Part shown: in pieces, positions 14,086 to 46,323 of the stretch
How positions within the stretch are numbered: the stretch's first letter is position 1
Layout of the letters: every line of letters starts with the position of its first letter
Source of the DNA: Propioniciclava soli
GTDB taxonomy: Bacteria > Actinomycetota > Actinomycetes > Propionibacteriales > Propionibacteriaceae
Reading direction: 5' to 3'
Assembly (NCBI RefSeq): GCF_014858005.1
Contig: NZ_JACYOT010000016.1
Span: forward strand, 1-64,000
DNA: 64,000 nt
Position numbers and translations under genes: made by a program
Notes under the pieces: model-generated
Told to the model about the DNA's origin: nothing
What the model saw: only the letters and a program-made list of their open reading frames with translations
Database searches by the model: none

Positions 14086-16608
14086 TCAGTCCTGCCGGCT
14101 GACGTCGGTGGTGTGCACCACGAGCTCGCCGGCGGCGTCACACTCGTCGAGGTCGACCCACGCGTGGACCGCCCAGTCGTGGTTGCCCTCAGGGTCGGCG
14201 ACGATCTGGCGCACCTGCCAGGTGCGGCCCTTCGCCTCGACGTCGAAGAAGCGCGGGCCGCGGGCGTCGGCGTCCGTGCCCACCCGGTCGTGTTCGGCGT
14301 AGTAGAGCTCCAGGGCCTCGTCCCAGTGGCGGCGGGTCATCACGACCTGCTGGCCGGTCTCCAGGGACGCGAGCGCGTCCAGGTCGTCGTCGGCCATCAG
14401 CTCGATGCGGCGCCACAGGGCGTTGCGGACGAGGACGCGGAAGGCGCGCTCGTTTCCGGTGACCGGGCGGGCCGGGGGTGGCGGCGCGTCCTCGGCGGGC
14501 GTTGCCTCCCCGGCCATGCCGGCGAGCTTCGTCCACTCATCGAGCAGTGAGGAGTCGACGAGCCGGACGACCTCCCCGAGCCACGCGATCAGGTCACCGA
14601 GCTCGTCGGTGCGCGACGCCTCGGGCACGGTCTGGCGCAAGGCCCGCCACGCGTCGGAGAGGTAGCGCAGGAGCAGGCCCTCGGAGCGCTGGATCTTGTA
14701 GTGGGCCACGAACTCGCCGAACGTCATGCCGCGGGCGTACATGTCGCGGACGACGGCCTTGGGCGACAGCGGGGTCTCGGCCAACCAGGGGTGCGTCGTG
14801 GCGTAGAGGCCGTACAGCTGTTCGAGCGGCTCGGCGAGCGGGCGCGGCCACGTGACCTCGTCGAGGATCTCCTGACGCTCCTCGAACTCCACACCGTCGG
14901 CCTTCAGCTCCGCGACCACCTCGCCACGCTCGCGAAACTGCTGGGCGAGCAGGATCACCATGGGGTTCTCCAGGGTCGCCTCGACCACGCTGACCACGTC
15001 GAGGGCGTACTCCGGCGATGCCGGGTCGAGGGTCTCGATGGCGGCCAGCGCAAAGGCGCTGAGCGGCTGGTTGAGCGCGAAGTCGCGCTGCAGATCGACG
15101 CTGACGGAGTACAGGCGTCCTCCCCGGGTGGGCTCGTCGCGGCGCACGACGATCCCCGCCCGGACGAGGGAGCGGGCGAGCTGGGCGGCCCGCCGGATGA
15201 GACGACGGCGGGTGGCGGCGTCCGGGTTGACCGAGTCGATGAGCCGCACGAGCACCTCGGCGGTGTCGACGTCGCGCTGCAGGAGGTTGAGCAGCAGGGC
15301 GTGGCTGATGGACAGGCGGGGGTGGAGCTCCTCGGGGGTGGACGCGATGAGCTTGGTGAACGTCGACTCGGTGTAGTTGACGAAGTCGGGCGGCGGCTGC
15401 TTGCGGCGGACGGAGCGGAGCTTCTTCGGGTCGCCGGCGAACTTGGCGAGAATACGGGCGTTCTCCACCTCGTGCTCGGGGGCCTGCGCGACGACGTAGC
15501 CGACGGTGTCGTAGCCGGCGCGGCCCGCGCGTCCGGCGATCTGGTGGAACTCGCGGCTGCGCAGGACGCGCTGGCGGCGTCCGTCGAACTTGGTGAGGGC
15601 GCTGAACAGTACGGTGCGGATGGGGACGTTGATGCCGACGCCCAGAGTGTCGGTGCCGCAGATCACCGCGAGCAGGCCGCGCTGGGCGAGGCGCTCCACG
15701 AGGCGCCGGTAGCGGGGCAGCATGCCGGCGTGGTGCACGGCGATGCCGGAGCGGAGCAGTTTTTCCAGCGTGGTGCCGAAGCCGCCCGCGAAGCCGAACC
15801 CCTTGAGCGCCTCACCGATCTCGGCACGGCGCGCGGGGTCGGTGATGCCCTGGCTGAGCAGCGCCTGGGCTCGCTCGACGGCCGCCGCCTGGGTGCCGTG
15901 GACGACGTAGACGGGCGCCTGGTGGGTGGCGATGAGCTGCTCGATCGTCTCGTGGATGGGCTCGAGCGACCACGAGAACGACAGCGGGACCGGCCGCTCC
16001 GCCCCGCCGGTCACGGCGGTCTCGCGTCCGGTGGCGGTGGTGAGCCGCTCGGCGAGCCGGGTGACGTCGCCGAGGGTGGCCGACATGAGTAGGAACTGCG
16101 CCTGGGGCAGCTCCACGAGCGGAACGTGCCAGGCCCAGCCTCGGTCGGGGTCGGCGACGAAGTGGAACTCGTCCATGACGACCTGCCCCACGACGGCGTC
16201 CACCCCTTCGCGGAGGGCGATGTTGGCCAGAATCTCGGCGGTGCAGCACACGATGGGGGCGTCGGCGTTGACGGCGGCGTCACCGGTGACCATGCCGACG
16301 TTCTCGGCGCCGAAGGTGTCGACCAACGCGAAGAACTTCTCGCTCACCAGCGCCTTGATGGGGGCGGTGTAGTACGTCCGGACGCCGCGGGCGAAGGCCG
16401 CGAAGTGCGCCGCGGTGGCGATCAGCGTCTTGCCCGAGCCCGTGGGGGTGGTGACGATGACGTTGTTGCCGACGAGGAGTTCGAGCAGCGACTCCTCCTG
16501 GTGGGGGTACAGGGTCAGTCCCTGCGCCGTGGCCCAGGCGACGAAGCCGGTCTCCAGGTCGTCGGGGTCGGCGGAACCGTCGGGGGGCAGAAAGTCGGTG
16601 ATCACCAT
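14086..16608 (-). CDS. DEAD/DEAH-box RNA helicase with DUF3516 C-terminus
   Basis: Superfamily II helicase (840 aa) of an actinobacterial type related to Ski2/Mtr4-like RNA helicases. Motif I is TPTGSGKT at 54-61, motif II DEFH at 146-149, motif III SAT at 176-178, and the second RecA domain holds HHAGMLPRYRRLVE and HQIAGRAGRAGYD. The last 400 residues correspond to DUF3516. Likely roles in RNA turnover or ribosome maturation are inferred from the family only. The ATG at 16608 (MVITDFLPP) is preferred over an upstream start at 16740 because it is preceded by GGATGGG and begins the conserved part. Confidence 0.88.
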   Translation of the reverse strand: MVITDFLPPDGSADPDDLETGFVAWATAQGLTLYPHQEESLLELLVGNNVIVTTPTGSGKTLIATAAHFAAFARGVRTYYTAPIKALVSEKFFALVDTFGAENVGMVTGDAAVNADAPIVCCTAEILANIALREGVDAVVGQVVMDEFHFVADPDRGWAWHVPLVELPQAQFLLMSATLGDVTRLAERLTTATGRETAVTGGAERPVPLSFSWSLEPIHETIEQLIATHQAPVYVVHGTQAAAVERAQALLSQGITDPARRAEIGEALKGFGFAGGFGTTLEKLLRSGIAVHHAGMLPRYRRLVERLAQRGLLAVICGTDTLGVGINVPIRTVLFSALTKFDGRRQRVLRSREFHQIAGRAGRAGYDTVGYVVAQAPEHEVENARILAKFAGDPKKLRSVRRKQPPPDFVNYTESTFTKLIASTPEELHPRLSISHALLLNLLQRDVDTAEVLVRLIDSVNPDAATRRRLIRRAAQLARSLVRAGIVVRRDEPTRGGRLYSVSVDLQRDFALNQPLSAFALAAIETLDPASPEYALDVVSVVEATLENPMVILLAQQFRERGEVVAELKADGVEFEERQEILDEVTWPRPLAEPLEQLYGLYATTHPWLAETPLSPKAVVRDMYARGMTFGEFVAHYKIQRSEGLLLRYLSDAWRALRQTVPEASRTDELGDLIAWLGEVVRLVDSSLLDEWTKLAGMAGEATPAEDAPPPPARPVTGNERAFRVLVRNALWRRIELMADDDLDALASLETGQQVVMTRRHWDEALELYYAEHDRVGTDADARGPRFFDVEAKGRTWQVRQIVADPEGNHDWAVHAWVDLDECDAAGELVVHTTDVSRQD

Positions 16609-16834
16609 GGCCCACCCATCCTTCCACGCGGGCGTCGGGCGGCACGACTGTCCCCGCTTCCTGTCGTCAGGCCCACCACCCCCGGTGGTTCGCTCGACTC
16701 TGTGGTGTGGCGCCCGACTCCCTGGCAGAACAAGCCCCACTACCCTGCCGGAACCGTCGCTTCCCTAGCGCCACGCTCGCCACCCTGCGCGGATCGCACC
16801 ACCCCAGCGTTGCACCACCAGGGTCGTCGATTGC

Positions 16835-16894
16835 GGACAGGGAGGCGGGCGCTCCGGCAGGGAGGCGGGCGCAGCGGCAGGGAGGCGGCTGCGC
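16835..16894. repeat. Tandem repeat, three 20-bp units
   Basis: Three head-to-tail copies of a 20-base unit with core GGCAGGGAGGCGGGCGC lie in the gene-free stretch 16609-17121. Units 1 and 2 differ by about 3 bases; unit 3 has diverged at its 3' side. No open frame with coding character crosses them. Confidence 0.8.
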
Positions 16895-16924: not shown

Positions 16925-17053
16925 CACGTGGCGCACCTCAACAGCACGTGGCGCAGTGAAGCTCACGTGGAGGCCCGTGCAAGGCCCGCCACGTGAGGCC
17001 CACTGCGCCACGTGGTGACCACGTGCGCCACGTGAGTTCCCCTGCGCCACGTG
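16925..17053. repeat. Palindrome-rich intergenic repeat (TGCGCCACGTG family), copy 1
   Basis: Eight CACGTG palindromes occur in 129 bases (starting at 16925, 16945, 16964, 16990, 17009, 17020, 17029 and 17048). The 11-base unit TGCGCCACGTG occurs five times, twice inverted (16925, 16945) and three times direct (17004, 17024, 17043). Positions 16949-16970 and 16989-17010 are inverted repeats matching at 19 of 22 positions around an 18-base loop; CACGTGGT-G-ACCACGTG at 17009-17025 is a perfect inner palindrome. The block sits 69 bases downstream of the pheT stop. A related block lies downstream of xfp (36936-37021). Confidence 0.9.
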
Positions 17054-17121
17054 GTGAGCGCGATCATGGGCGACCCCCGTGGTGGAGGAGTCCGTGTGCG
17101 CGCTCCACGCGCCAGGATGGG

Positions 17122-19728
17122 TCAGGCCCGCAGCTCGGCACCCCACGCGCGCGCCGCCTCGGCGACGGCGGCGGCGCGGGCCTGGGCCACCTCGGCGTCG
17201 GTCAGCGTCCGATCCGGCGCGCGGAACCGCAGCGCGAACGCGACGGACTTCTTGCCCGCCGGCACCGGATCGCCTGTGTAGACGTCGAAGAGGCGCACCG
17301 ATTCCAGCAGCGTTCCGCCGCCCGCGACCAGCGCGGACTCCAGCGACGCCGCGCCGACGGACTCCTCCACCACGAGCGCCACGTCCTCCTTCACCACCGG
17401 GTGCGTCGACACCGCGGCGACCGAGCCGGGCTCGCCGGCCAGCGAGAGCAGCAGGTCGAGGTCCAACTCGAGGGCGGCCGTGCGGGCCGGGAGGTCGAAG
17501 GCCTTGATGACGCTGGGGTGCAGCTCGCCGGCGTGGCCGACGACCGTCCCGGACACGACCAGCTCGGCGCACCGCCCCGGGTGCCACGGCATGACGGACG
17601 CCGGCGCCCGCGTCAGCTCGGCGCCCACGGTCGTCGCCACGAGCTCGGCCAGGCCGAACGCCTGCCGCCAACCCGCGGGCTGCGCGGGGCCGTCCCAGCC
17701 AGCCGGAAGCCAGTCGCCTGCCACCACGGCCGCGAGATGACGCGGCTGCTCGGGCAGGGTCGCCTCGATGGCGGCCAGGTCGGACTCCGACGGGCGGCCC
17801 GACACCCCGGGCAGCGGAGTCGGCTCGTCGCCGGCCGAGAAGAACACCCGGCCCGCCTCGAACAGCGCCACGTCATCGATGCCGCGCGAGGCGTTGCGCG
17901 CGAGCGCCCCGAACAGCCCGGGCAGGATCGTCGTGCGCAGCACCGGCGCGGTGTCGGCCAGCGGGTTCGCCAGCCGGACGCCGCGGCGGCGCCGATCGTC
18001 GGCCAGCAGCCCGAGCGCGTCGGCGTCCGCCTGGCCCACCCACGGGAACGTGAGCACCTCGACGAAGCCGCTCGTGGCGACCGCCCGCGTGACGGCACGC
18101 CGCAGGTGTTGCTCGCGGGTGAGGCCGCGTCCGGCGGGCGCGGTGGGCACCACCGATGGAATACGGTCGTACCCCACCTTGATGCCGACCTCCTCGACGT
18201 AGTCGAAGGGGTCCACGAGGTCGCTGCGCCAGGTCGGCGGGGTCACGGTGAGAGACGCCCCCGGCGCCGCCTCGCCGCCGTCCGCAACCGGCTCGTCCAC
18301 ACCCGCCACGCGCACCCCGGAGGCGGTCAGGATCGCCACCACCTGATCGGCGCTCACCGGCATGCCGAGGATCCGCTCCGGCAGGTTCGCAGCGAGCGTC
18401 TGGGTGGGCATCGCGGGCACGGACCCGGCCACCGTCTCGGCGACGAGCTCTCCCCCGCCCAGCTCCACCAGCAGCTCGGCCACCCGTCGGGCGGCGGAGT
18501 AGGCGGCGCCGGCGTCCACGTGGCGTTCGAAGCGCTTGGACGCCTCGCTCACCAGTCGGTGCCTGCGCGAGGTTCGCGCGATGCTGATCGGATCGAAGTG
18601 GGCGGCCTCGATGACGATGCGGGTCGTCGCGTCGCGCAGCTCGGTGGTCTCCCCGCCCATGACGCCGGCCAAGCCGATCGGGCCGGTCTCGTCGGTGATC
18701 AGCAGGTCCTCGTCGTCCAGCCGACGCGTCACGCCGTCCAGCGTCACGAGCGTCTCCCCACCGCGGGCGCGCCGCACGACGAGGGGCCCGGCGAGGGCGT
18801 CCGCGTCGTAACAGTGGTTCGGTTGGCCGGTCTCGAGCATGACGTAGTTGGAGATGTCGACGCTCAGCGAGATCGAGCGCATGCCGCAGGCCGCCAGCCG
18901 CTGGCGCAGCCAGCTCGGGCTGGGTGCCGCCGGGTCGAACCCCTCGACCGTCAGCGCCACGAACAGCGGGCAGGCGTCGGACTCCAGCCGCACCGGATAC
19001 CCGCCCTCGGACGCCGCCGGTGTCGGGTGGGCGATCACGTCGGTGAACGCCACCCCGAGCGACTGGGACGCCTCGCGGGCCAGGCCGCGCACCGACAGGC
19101 AGTGCCCCATGTCGGAGGTGATCGGCATGTCGAGCACCTCGTCGGCCACCCCCATGGCGTCCAGCGCCGGAGCGCCGAGCACCCACGGCTCCCCCGCCGC
19201 GTCGATGTCACCCAGCACGATGATGCCGCTGTGGTCCTCGCCCAGGCCCAACTCGTCCTCGGCGCAGATCATGCCGTCGCTGAGGTGCCCGTAGGTCCTG
19301 CGGGAGCCGATGGTGAAGCCGCCCGGTTGCGTGGGGTCCGGCAGCGTCGTGCCCGGCAGCGCCACCACCACGTGGTCACCCGGGGCGAAGTTCAGGGCAC
19401 CGCAGATCACGCCGCGCGGCCAGTACCCGCCCCCCGGGGAGCCGATCCGCTCCACCGTCTCGCCGCGCAGCGGCCCCGGGGCGGCGTCGGGGGCCAGCTC
19501 GGCGCCGACGTCCACGTGGCACCACCGGATGGTCTTGCCGTTCTTCTGCGGCTCCTCGACGAAGTCGACGACCCGGCCGATGACCAGCGGCCCTGTGACG
19601 TCGCCGCCCACGGCCTCGACGCGCTCCACCTCCAGGCCGGCGCGCACCAGCGCCTCGCCCAGCTCGCGGCCCGACAGACCCGCGGGCAGCGCGGCGTACT
19701 CGGCGATCCAGCTCTTCGTGACCCTCAC
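17122..19728 (-). CDS. pheT: Phenylalanyl-tRNA synthetase beta subunit
   Basis: Large subunit (868 aa) of the alpha2-beta2 PheRS. It begins VTKSWIAEYAALP, has the N-terminal tRNA-binding (EMAP-like) domain to about residue 150 (VVIGRVVDF, INAP-type region CGALNFAPGD), the B3/B4 editing domain with the segment RRHRLVSEASKRFERHVD, a B5 domain around 410-480, a catalytic-like domain, and a C-terminal ferredoxin-fold anticodon-binding domain (STHPVVKEDVALVV to the end). The start is the GTG at 19728, whose GTGA overlaps the pheS stop; the open frame upstream of it is not coding. Confidence 0.95.
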   Translation of the reverse strand: MRVTKSWIAEYAALPAGLSGRELGEALVRAGLEVERVEAVGGDVTGPLVIGRVVDFVEEPQKNGKTIRWCHVDVGAELAPDAAPGPLRGETVERIGSPGGGYWPRGVICGALNFAPGDHVVVALPGTTLPDPTQPGGFTIGSRRTYGHLSDGMICAEDELGLGEDHSGIIVLGDIDAAGEPWVLGAPALDAMGVADEVLDMPITSDMGHCLSVRGLAREASQSLGVAFTDVIAHPTPAASEGGYPVRLESDACPLFVALTVEGFDPAAPSPSWLRQRLAACGMRSISLSVDISNYVMLETGQPNHCYDADALAGPLVVRRARGGETLVTLDGVTRRLDDEDLLITDETGPIGLAGVMGGETTELRDATTRIVIEAAHFDPISIARTSRRHRLVSEASKRFERHVDAGAAYSAARRVAELLVELGGGELVAETVAGSVPAMPTQTLAANLPERILGMPVSADQVVAILTASGVRVAGVDEPVADGGEAAPGASLTVTPPTWRSDLVDPFDYVEEVGIKVGYDRIPSVVPTAPAGRGLTREQHLRRAVTRAVATSGFVEVLTFPWVGQADADALGLLADDRRRRGVRLANPLADTAPVLRTTILPGLFGALARNASRGIDDVALFEAGRVFFSAGDEPTPLPGVSGRPSESDLAAIEATLPEQPRHLAAVVAGDWLPAGWDGPAQPAGWRQAFGLAELVATTVGAELTRAPASVMPWHPGRCAELVVSGTVVGHAGELHPSVIKAFDLPARTAALELDLDLLLSLAGEPGSVAAVSTHPVVKEDVALVVEESVGAASLESALVAGGGTLLESVRLFDVYTGDPVPAGKKSVAFALRFRAPDRTLTDAEVAQARAAAVAEAARAWGAELRA

Positions 19729-36646: not shown

Positions 36647-36935
36647 GCGAGCTCGAAAACTGTTTTGAGGCGATGCAGGGATCTACCCGCCAGGGGCTCA
36701 ACGTAATGCGGAGAAGAAGGCGCAGTCAATGGCACGGCACGTCGCCGCCCGCGGGCTCATTGACCTCGCCAGCTCACCGCGGCGTCCCACGATCGGCGGG
36801 AGGACCGGTGACTCGTGGAACCAATCCGTCACCGAGACGGGACGCCCCGCTCGCTGGGCGCTCGTCCCGTTCACGTGGAGCGCCCTCTCCTCACCTGGCG
36901 CATCTGTTCTGCACTTCGCGCCTCCTTTCTGCACT

Positions 36936-37021
36936 TGGCGCAGTGCAGCTCACCTGGCGGGGCCTGGACGGGCCGCCGGGTGACGTCCGCTGCGCCACGT
37001 GCCGCCAAGGTGCGCCACGTG
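36936..37021. repeat. Palindrome-rich intergenic repeat (TGCGCCACGTG family), copy 2
   Basis: Related to 16925-17053. The left arm starts TGGCGCAGTGCAGCTCACC (36936) and pairs imperfectly with 36970-36997 ending GCTGCGCCA; two TGCGCCACGTG units follow at 36991 and 37011. A further CACGTG lies at 36872 and degenerate CACCTG forms at 36891 and 36951. The shared block GGCGCAGTGnAGCTCAC links the two loci. As at pheT, it lies just downstream (94 bases) of the stop of a minus-strand gene. The rest of 36647-37114 holds no supportable gene. Confidence 0.8.
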
Positions 37022-37114
37022 CATTCCCGACGCGCGCCACGGCGGCGTCCACCCCGCCGGCTGACGCCCAGCAACCCGGAGGCGACCGCGTCCAGACCCG
37101 ACCCCGACGCCGTC

Positions 37115-39577
37115 CTACTCGTTGTCCCCGCCGGTGCCCTGGGTACCCGCCACGACCGACTCCGTCGAGTCGCCCCCGTCGCCCCAGACCCAGTCGTTCA
37201 CCTCCGGGTGGTCGATGCCGTGTGTGTAGGCGTACTGGCGGCACATGATGCGCTGGTCGGCCATGTACTGCCGCAGGTTGGCGTACCGCGAGCCGAGCGA
37301 GGGCACGCGGTCGATGACATCCATCACCAGGTGGTAGCGGTCGAGGTCGTTGCGCATCACCATGTCGAACGGCGTCGTGGTGGTGCCTTCCTCCTTGAAG
37401 CCGCGCACGTGCAGGTTCGCGTGGCCGGTGCGCCGGTACGTGAGCCGGTGGATCAGCCACGGGTAGCCGTGGTAGGCGAACACCACGGGCCGATCGGGCG
37501 TGAAGTACGTGTCGAACTCCCGGCTGGTCAGCCCGTGGGGGTGCTCGTCGGCGTCCTGCAGCCGCATCAGGTCGACCACGTTCACGACGCGCACCTTCAG
37601 CTCCGGGATCGCCTCGCGCAGGATCTTCGCCGCCGCGAGCACCTCGATGGTTGGGATGTCGCCGGCGCAGCCGAGCACGACGTCGGGGTCGTCCCCGTCG
37701 GACTCGGTGCCCGCCCAGTGCCAGATGCCGAGGCCGCGCGTGCAGTGCTTGATGGCCTCCTCCATGCTCAGCCAGTTCGGGTTCGGCTGCTTGCCGGCCA
37801 CGACGACGTTCACGTACTGCCGCGAGCGCAGGCAGTGGTCGAACGTCGACAGCAGCGTGTTGGTGTCCGGCGGCAGGTAGACCCGGATGATCTCGGACTT
37901 CTTGTTCACCACATGGTCGATGAACCCCGGATCCTGGTGGCTGAAGCCGTTGTGGTCCTGCCGCCACACGTGGCTGCTCAGCAGGTAGTTCAGCGACGCG
38001 ATCGGACGCCGCCACTCGATCTGGTTCGTCACCTTCAGCCACTTCGCGTGCTGGTTGAACATCGAGTCGACGATGTGGATGAACGCCTCGTAGGAACTCA
38101 TCATCCCGTGGCGCCCGGTGAGCAGGTAGCCCTCCAGCCAGCCCTGGCACTGGTGCTCCGACAGCATCTCCATGACGCGGCCGCTCACGTCCAGGTGGTC
38201 GTCGTCATCGGTGGCGTGGAACTCGGCGTTCCACTGCTTGTCGGTCACCTCGTAGACGTCCTGCAGCCGGTTGGACGCCGTCTCGTCCGGCCCGAAGATG
38301 CGGAACGTGGTCGGGTTCGCCGCCACGACGTCGCGCAGCCACGCGCCCAGCGTGCGGGTCGCCTCCGAGACCGTCGCGCCGGGCTCCTCCACGTCGACGG
38401 CGTGGTCGCGGAAGTCGGGCAGCTTGAGGCCGGCCAGCACCAGCCCGCCGTTGGTGACGGGGTTGGCGCTCATGCGGCGCTCACCTTGCGGCGCCTGCGC
38501 GGCGATCTCGGGCAGCAGGGCCCCGTCGGCGTCGAACAGCTCCTCGGGCCGGTAGGAGAGCAGCCAGTCCTTGAGCTGCTGGAGGTGCTCGGGGGTGTCG
38601 CGGGCGGACGCCAGCGGCACCTGGTGGCTGCGCCAGCTTCCCTCGGTGCGCTTGCCGTCGACCTCCTCCGGGCCGGTCCAGCCCTTCGGCGTCCGGAACA
38701 CGATCATGGGCCAGGCCGGACGCGGGGCGTCCTTGCCCTCGGGCTGCGCCTTGATGCGGACGATGGCGTCCAGTGCCTCGTCGAGGACGGCCGCGAACCG
38801 CTGGTGGGTCTCGAGCGGATCCTCGTCGTCGAAGCCACCGGTGAAGAAGAACGGCTCGTGGCCGTAGCCCCGCATGAGATCGGCGAGCTCGGACTCCGGG
38901 ATGCGCGCCAGCACCGTCGGGTTGGCGATCTTGTAGCCGTTCAGGTGCAGCACCGGCAGCACGACGCCGTCGGTGGCGGTGTTCACGAACTTGTTCGAGT
39001 GCCACGACGTGGCCAGCGGGCCGGTCTCGGCCTCACCGTCGCCGACGACGGTGAACGCCAGCAGGTTCGGGTTGTCGAAGACGGCGCCATAGGCGTGCGA
39101 GAGCGCATAGCCCAACTCGCCCCCCTCGTGGATCGAGCCCGGGGTCTCGGGCGCGACGTGGCTCGGGATGCCGCCGGGGAAGGAGAACTGCTTGAACAGC
39201 CGGCCCAGCCCCGCGGTGTCGCGGGTGACCGTCGGGTACACCTCGGTGTAGGTGCCCTCCAGATAGGTGTTCGCCACCAGGCCGGGGCCGCCGTGGCCGG
39301 GGCCGGTGATGTAGAGCGCGTCGAGCCCCCGCTGGGCGATGGCGCGGTTGAAGTGCGCGTAGAGGAAATTGAGCCCCGGCGTCGTCCCCCAGTGGCCCAG
39401 CAGGCGGGGCTTGACGTCGTCGACGGTGAACTCCTCGCGCAGCAGCGGATTGTCCAACAGGTAGATCTGGCCGACCGAGAGGTAGTTCGCGGCGCGGAAC
39501 CACGCATCGATCAGCCGCGCACCCTCCGCGTCGAGGGGCGTGCCGGTGGTCTGGGGCCAGGTGTCGTGCGCAGTCAT
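37115..39577 (-). CDS. xfp: Xylulose-5-phosphate/fructose-6-phosphate phosphoketolase
   Basis: TPP-dependent enzyme (820 aa, full length) that splits xylulose-5-P or fructose-6-P with phosphate to acetyl phosphate and an aldose phosphate; central to bifid-type or pentose fermentation and acetyl-CoA supply. [10 protein letters not shown] (61-70) holds a catalytic His, GPGHGGPG is at 92-99, and GDGEAETGP (179-187) is the TPP-binding motif. The ATG at 39577 has GGGAGG 8 bases upstream. A minus-strand -10 candidate TAGCGT lies near 39630. No acetate kinase or phosphotransacetylase gene is adjacent. Confidence 0.95.
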
Positions 39578-45838: not shown

Positions 45839-46323
45839 CGGGATGGGCGGTGGCCCTCGCCGGCGGGCTGGGTGCCGGGGCGCGGTTCTGGCTGGACGCC
45901 CTCGTCGTCAGCCGGTGGCGGGGGCGATGGCCCGTGGCGACGCTGGTGGTGAACGTGCTCGGGTCCTTGCTGCTCGGCCTGCTCGTGGGCTGGGCGGGCG
46001 CGGCGCACCCGGTGACGCGTTCCGTCATCGGGGTGGGGTTTCTCGGCGGGTTCACCACGTTCAGCACGGCGAGCGTCGAGCTCGTCCGGCTCCGGCGGAC
46101 GGAGCCGCCCTGCGCCACCCCCGGGCGGACCGCGCCGAACGGCGACGGCGCCTCGCATGGCTCCCGTCCGCCGAACGGCTCCCGCCCGTCGCATGACTCT
46201 CGCCCGTCGCATGACTCTCGCCCGCTGAATCGCTGGGGCGTCGTGCTGGGGCTCGGGCTGCTCATGTTCGTGGCGAGCGTGACGGCGCTGGTCGTCGGGC
46301 TGTGGCTGGGGGCGTCCGCCTGA
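45829..46323 (+). CDS. crcB: Fluoride channel subunit, second of a pair
   Basis: 164 aa. GGLGAGARFWLDALV, ATLVVNVLGSLLLGLLVGW and GVGFLGGFTTFSTASVELV identify CrcB/Fluc. Between helices 3 and 4 is an unusual 35-residue loop rich in Ser, Arg, Pro, His, built partly from two perfect 18-base repeats (46189-46224). The start may be ATG 45829 or GTG 45835, the latter forming GTGA with the upstream stop. Confidence 0.88.
   Translation: MGVTGWAVALAGGLGAGARFWLDALVVSRWRGRWPVATLVVNVLGSLLLGLLVGWAGAAHPVTRSVIGVGFLGGFTTFSTASVELVRLRRTEPPCATPGRTAPNGDGASHGSRPPNGSRPSHDSRPSHDSRPLNRWGVVLGLGLLMFVASVTALVVGLWLGASA

Follow-up and report, generated by a model that had tools for sequence, protein, structure and literature searches.

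A species-specific dispersed element with conserved half-sites between the genes of Propioniciclava soli

A species-specific element, here called Family A, is dispersed over the genome of Propioniciclava soli, and its duplex half-sites are conserved. Two copies lie in the window, i.e., in the whole stretch of 64,000 nucleotides that was analysed. With modest confidence we describe Family A as a species-specific, non-coding, dispersible intergenic element whose CACNTGGCGCA half-sites would be bound by a protein and which would spread in the fashion of REP/BIME repeats. In PMC3733652, Proteobacteria are named as the group in which REP-like repeats are known best, and those of the GTAG kind are thought to be moved by a dedicated transposase.

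Family A in the Window

The original prediction described eight CACGTG palindromes and five exact TGCGCCACGTG units within positions 16925-17053 and a second copy with two more such units. Both counts are reproduced, and the two further units start at 36991 and 37011. Dinucleotide shuffles of the window lead to an expectation of 0.23 exact TGCGCCACGTG matches, while 7 are observed, a number reached by none of 100 shuffles. CACGTG alone is not enriched across the window (44 vs. 38 expected), such that the signal consists of the cluster together with the 11-mer.

The features are listed in Table 1. The two predicted copies are real, but both are larger than described, and each contains a 70-base core. 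Their location downstream of minus-strand stops, namely of pheT and xfp, fits the distances given originally. When folded as single-stranded DNA, the core of copy 1 reaches -33.3 kcal/mol (z -8.2). The left side of copy 2 holds five degenerate units, two of them inside the core (by eye). Elsewhere in the window, an 18-base tandem repeat is found at 46157-46260, in which 48/60 bases repeat.

Table 1. Positions of Family A, Family B and neighbouring genes in the window.
Feature	Positions	Strand	Remarks
DEAD-box helicase with DUF3516	14086..16608	-	name by Pfam
Family B element adjoining copy 1	16742..16888 (edges approximate)	none	20-base unit starting GGCAGGGAGGCGG; layout like Family A, other letters
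Family A copy 1	16925..17058 (approximate span)	none	between pheT stop and DUF3516 helicase gene
Copy 1, outer left unit TGCGCCACGTG	16925..16935	-	
Copy 1, 70-base core	16945..17014	+	centre GTGCAA at 16977-16982
Copy 1, core left half-site TGCGCCACGTG	16945..16955	-	
Copy 1, core right half-site TGCGCCACGTG	17004..17014	+	
Copy 1, outer right unit	17024..17034	+	spacing 20
Copy 1, next outer right unit	17043..17053	+	spacing 19
pheT	17122..19728	-	stop 63 bases from copy 1; name by Pfam
Family A copy 2	about 36872..37043 (<=3 mismatches per unit)	none	beside xfp; degenerate left units
Copy 2, 70-base core	36932..37001	-	
Copy 2, core right half-site, exact	36991..37001	+	
Copy 2, outer right unit, exact	37011..37021	+	
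xfp (phosphoketolase)	37115..39577	-	stop 71 bases from copy 2; name by Pfam

Genome-Wide Copies and Anatomy

We searched the genome of 3,795,546 bases on 65 contigs. Within these 3.80 Mb, TGCGCCACGTG occurs 153 times, compared to 11 times for the reversed-pattern control. The 11-mer is the half-site of Family A. A covariance model of the core yields at least 41 places on 13 contigs, to which two half copies (L041, L057) are to be added, and the multi-copy intergenic repeat family that had been proposed is supported. Here, scoring covered 150 of 9,210 first-look candidates, and 80 rows were merged to the 41 places; additional, more degenerate copies may exist. Another 37 listed TGCGCCACGTG places were read as stretches. 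While 27 of them are rows or half rows, 10 are isolated single matches without a row and were left out (L031, L035, L044, L045, L048, L053, L054, L061, L062, L063).

All copies can be related to one plan, i.e., a 70-base core with inverted half-sites about a polar 6-base centre, flanked outside by inverted rows of CACGTGGCGCA+N9. The 24 cores used for the alignment fit without any gap. Their left half-sites resemble CACGTGGCGCA and CACGTGGMGG, with inverted copies of these on the right, and the centre reads GTGCAA in 8/24 and GTCCAA in 5/24 cores. Since the centre is polar, the element has a direction, and the cores occur in both directions along the contigs. A poor or altered core is found in 3/41 places (C5:61590, C11:23060, C54:202531).

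Units with at most 2 mismatches number 343 in 43 places (the 41 plus both half copies), and as only these are admitted, the following values for spacing, spacer likeness and row order are biased: neighbouring units are 20 bases apart in 170 pairs and 19 in 50, the N9 spacers (last nine unit bases), which are under loose constraint, are alike in 48% between neighbours at spacing 20 (170 pairs) vs. 37% between elements, and the left row precedes the inverted right row in 41/42 places holding both, with the opposite order in 1/42. Row lengths vary between elements, and whole-element local duplications are visible by eye at two places (L098, L099). In the flanks of the Family B/A elements L273, L274 and L098 we also noted, by eye, palindromic-looking stretches with GAGTTTG or CACACTCCGG. 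A long near-perfect hairpin, GGACCCGAGGAAATGGCGCCATGGCGCCATTTCCTCGGGTCC, stands right of the element at L105.

Conservation and Gene Context

Among the 24 cores, mean column identity is 93% for half-sites, 87% for the centre and 79% for the spacers. The 42 half-site columns show 70 departures, 31 of which fall into columns 4, 23, 48 and 67. For the pairing of the arms, no covariation is observed: standard pairs amount to 90.4% vs. 90.1% in shuffled data, the covariation value is 0.075 vs. 0.072, and stem pairs with double changes number 3 vs. 3.9 in shuffles, i.e., there is no compensatory signal. One stem pair near the centre is C.C in 18/24 cores. Because of the identity contrast between half-sites and spacers, we take it that selection, or copying success, acts on the half-sites. 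The decay of dead copies would not by itself produce this contrast, though such copies would likewise lack covariation, such that missing covariation would by itself be no proof of protein binding.

Using a codon-usage gene caller, both neighbours were resolved for 29/43 places (14 unresolved), which split into 16 tandem, 9 convergent and 4 divergent arrangements; in these counts L098a/b and L099a/b have the same neighbours, so that they are no independent cases. One of the 4 divergent places sits inside a local duplication, and at L097 the ORF overlapping the element is probably spurious. The 59 gene junctions of the window comprise 50 tandem, 5 divergent and 4 convergent ones. Compared to these, convergent places are in excess (9/29 vs. 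4/59, Fisher P 0.008), while convergent vs. divergent places alone (9 to 4) do not differ significantly (P 0.27). Eight neighbours run against Pfam are all ordinary, i.e., helicase, PheT, XFP, pyrophosphatase, EF-Tu, GroEL, acetate kinase and peptidase S51. At the EF-Tu locus, a G+C-rich hairpin, seen by eye, stands beside the EF-Tu stop with the element beyond it, and such a hairpin is present in the congeners G008, G001 and G002 as well. At gathering score, Rfam gives no match in 7 element loci, and the window yields one tRNA only.

Comparison with Congeners

Each of 12 congeners contains 3-12 exact TGCGCCACGTG matches, which is near the respective controls of 6-16, and Family A rows were not found in any of them. 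Of the refuting condition set originally, one half came true, as the element is not conserved in these 12 sister genomes, and the other did not, as it is present at far more than the two loci of the window.

The gap between pheT and helicase gene is 493-615 bases here vs. 12-149 bases (alignment gap) in 9/12 congeners. A long spacer at this place is not unique to this genome, since it measures 1150 bases in G008, where it includes an extra gene (L155, polysaccharide-deacetylase-like by eye), and about 2.3 kb in G001; in G011 the two genes are split over contigs. The gap beyond EF-Tu measures 601-603 bases here vs. 168 (G008), 324 (G001) and 209 (G002), which are the 3/12 congeners where the same neighbour aligns from end to end. 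Exact junctions or target duplications are not recognisable in either of these two comparisons.

Of 147 family genomes searched with the core model, four gave a match, namely this one as well as G008, G014 and G065, the latter three with other letters. The exact tandem pair CACGTGGCGCA-N9-CACGTGGCGCA has no match in the genome_contigs collection, which holds 1 genome for each of 84,980 species and from which own or near genomes may be omitted.

Family B and Related Layouts

Next to copy 1, we noticed a second family of similar layout but with other letters (Family B). Tandem pairs of its GGCAGGGNGGCG units number 46 here and 0 in the 12 congeners, with the reversed control at 0 here and 1 in G005. 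Its centre deviates by at most 1 base from TTGCAA in 18/18 kept places, although the template held TTGCAA and favours that centre; 2/20 centres, both far from TTGCAA, were left out as they had no row around (L271 at 992, L282 at 2814). Families A and B co-locate, i.e., 5/21 Family B loci are within 600 bases of a Family A core (0.27 expected, P about 1e-5), where one of the five is the window itself, through which Family B was noticed. Further Family B elements are found at L037, L056, L098 and L269-L296. A further repeat around CTTGTGCATGG or CATGCACATGC and TCGACGC can be seen by eye in the flanks at L269, L290 and L293.

A degenerate pair pattern, applied to 197 family genomes, is most frequent here (156 vs. 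2 in the control), followed by G065 (14 vs. 3), G008 (9 vs. 0, with 5 in one array) and G014 (7 vs. 0). The next highest count (6 vs. 1) belongs to G031, where the one place that was read is coding sequence (by eye). In G008 we find one element whose left unit has 19 bases and differs from its right unit; its centre is GTTGCAAC. Within genome_contigs, the degenerate scan gives 33 stretches: 21 in Actinomyces bowdenii (Actinomycetaceae), 8 in Enemella dayhoffiae (Propionibacteriaceae) and 4 singles elsewhere. A looser pair pattern matches in 5 of 396 phylum genomes, with 31 matches here, 4 in G293 and 1 each in three others (G282, G384, G443), whose one pair each was not counted as a family.

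The layout thus recurs with other letters in Family B, G008, Enemella, G014, A. bowdenii and G293. Rows in inverted order are seen throughout in A. bowdenii (21 stretches), Enemella (8 places) and G014 (4 places), while G293 shows the rows the other way round in 4/4 places; this reading took 4 of 6 fetched G014 stretches as well as 9 stretches of Family B, and it carries the bias from units with at most 2 mismatches noted above. The search patterns did not require inverted order. They did prescribe a period of 17-20 or 19-20 (about 20 for Family B, which was seen in the window first), such that for Enemella, G014, A. bowdenii and G293 the spacing adds no independent support. The centre is TTGCAA/GTGCAA-like in Families A and B and in the G008 element, but not in Enemella. 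Between two Enemella elements lies a 305-aa ORF (L137:730-1647) without Pfam match at 1e-5.

Search for a Partner Gene or Mobile Origin

A RAYT transposase was rejected as partner, as the Y1_Tnp profile (PF01797) has no match in this genome, while 5/14 control genomes are positive. We further considered a DUF559/AbiEi-like endonuclease, given that the Enemella ORF at L137 and an ORF beside a G014 element look like members of that family. Both lack a Pfam match at 1e-5 and DUF559 (PF04480) has none in this genome, and the candidate was rejected. The same holds for IS21-like ends, for which no respective genes were seen by eye among closed ORFs of at least 120 aa near nine arrays of other organisms. 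Phage and plasmid collections contain no copy of the element at 1e-5, and 19 viral stretches with degenerate pairs looked by eye like chance or simple repeats; a phage or plasmid origin was thus discarded as well.

Discussion

We read Family A not as a terminator but as a dispersible, REP/BIME-like element that carries putative sites for protein binding to duplex DNA. The 11-mer CACNTGGCGCA would be the half-site that a trans-acting protein recognises in the duplex, and a recombinase- or transposase-like kind is our first guess for this protein. It may occupy one unit after another, at steps of about two helical turns, to the left and right of the centre. Via the protein, copies would spread REP/BIME-fashion into tolerated intergenic gaps, and rows would lengthen and shorten through local unit duplication. 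Against this reading stands that no mobilising gene was found among the two families searched in this genome (PF01797, PF04480). The lack of copies in the phage and plasmid collections speaks against it as well, as do the 3 poor or altered cores, the 1 place with opposite row order and the long pheT spacers of G008 and G001. Target duplications were not recognised, nor were fixed termini, the latter because rows vary in length.

REP/BIME/REPIN systems with RAYT (PMC3733652, PMC3116915, PMC2817692) are alike in that they are dispersed intergenic palindromic repeats forming species-specific families, with oppositely oriented units that lie chiefly between tandem or convergent genes. They differ in being palindromes of 20-40 bases, whereas Family A consists of phased rows of 20-base units to either side of a single polar centre. 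It also lacks the GTAG tag of GTAG REPs, and the genome lacks a RAYT gene: GTAG is found in 1/24 cores and 1/43 elements with 15 flanking bases, CTAC in 0/24 and 2/43. CGTC, which tags one palindrome end in CGTC REPs, is found in 8/24 cores and 30/43 elements with flanks, and GACG in 3/24 and 24/43; within the alignment of the 24 cores, CGTC has no fixed place. The mosaic of opposite-orientation units at 41 intergenic places is BIME-like. The originally suggested REP/BIME type stands for the manner of dispersal and not for classical REP membership, which fails on the GTAG tag and the RAYT transposase; an element working like REP/BIME remains the best description. Enterobacterial RU elements and other MITE-like repeats share the short, non-autonomous, intergenic character (PMC2759123, PMC2229807), but in Family A no fixed ends or target duplications are seen and the row number varies. 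In agreement with the original remark on the lack of a described family, none of the literature matches listed shows an actinobacterial family of this layout in title or abstract opening, and the words 'Actinobacteria', 'Actinomyces' and 'Propionibacter' are absent from the abstract and passages of PMC3733652 used here.

Several other explanations have to be weighed. The rows could be host chromosome-organising sites, i.e., a ParB/Noc-like or nucleoid protein would bind them and copies would be kept for that function. Phased multi-site rows with conserved half-sites at 41 places on 13 contigs would suit this, and CACGTG is also found at the centre of parS. Yet that they were not found in 12 congeners is odd for a housekeeping function, and neither the local duplications nor the presence of Family B, which repeats the layout in this genome with other letters, are in line with it, which makes this explanation unlikely. 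An RNA-level element, i.e., a 3' untranslated hairpin that ends or stabilises transcripts, would account for the very stable fold, for the many places just after stops and for the convergent excess over the window junctions. It conflicts with arms that do not covary, with cores in both directions, with divergent places (one of the four within a local duplication), with the congener-shared hairpin between EF-Tu stop and element, with the missing Rfam match and with the non-significant difference of convergent and divergent places, and we regard it as quite improbable. The originally proposed role at transcript ends is thus weakly supported at best, while protein binding, the other proposed function, appears better supported, given that half-sites are conserved and arm pairing is not.

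Neutral copies that recombination and slippage spread passively, and that no protein recognises, would explain that row lengths vary and that neighbouring units resemble one another. They would not explain why half-sites are better conserved than spacers within an ungapped core, nor the same layout with other letters in several genomes, so that we hold this for very improbable. Transposon ends and recombination sites can carry several recombinase-binding repeats. Such sites resemble Family A in their inverted protein-binding (here putative) repeats about an asymmetric centre, while Family A is short and stand-alone with no recombinase gene found among the few families searched. A miniature insertion sequence, made from two repeat-bearing ends of a larger transposon, comes to mind since a left row plus an inverted right row about a short centre has the look of two ends joined together, for which an IS21-like end array could be a model. 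Given that no istA/istB-like gene is visible by eye near nine arrays of other organisms and that no fixed ends were recognised, we give it hardly any credence.

Conclusions

The layout recurs with other unit letters, both in this genome and outside it, which points to a general mechanism and not to one particular sequence. More tentatively, and as a possibility only, the element class would be set by layout and not by letters: inverted 19-20-base rows about a short centre, scattered over Actinomycetota with own letters per genome and served by an unrecognised recombinase family of fast-changing specificity. The genome of the window has no RAYT transposase, and several actinobacterial genomes share the layout with different letters. 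The look-alikes in a few other actinobacteria point to a type of spreading repeat in bacteria that is still poorly charted. Its families form a natural series of matched sites with different letters, and the partner protein, if found, would represent a new repeat-mobilising or chromosome-organising system.
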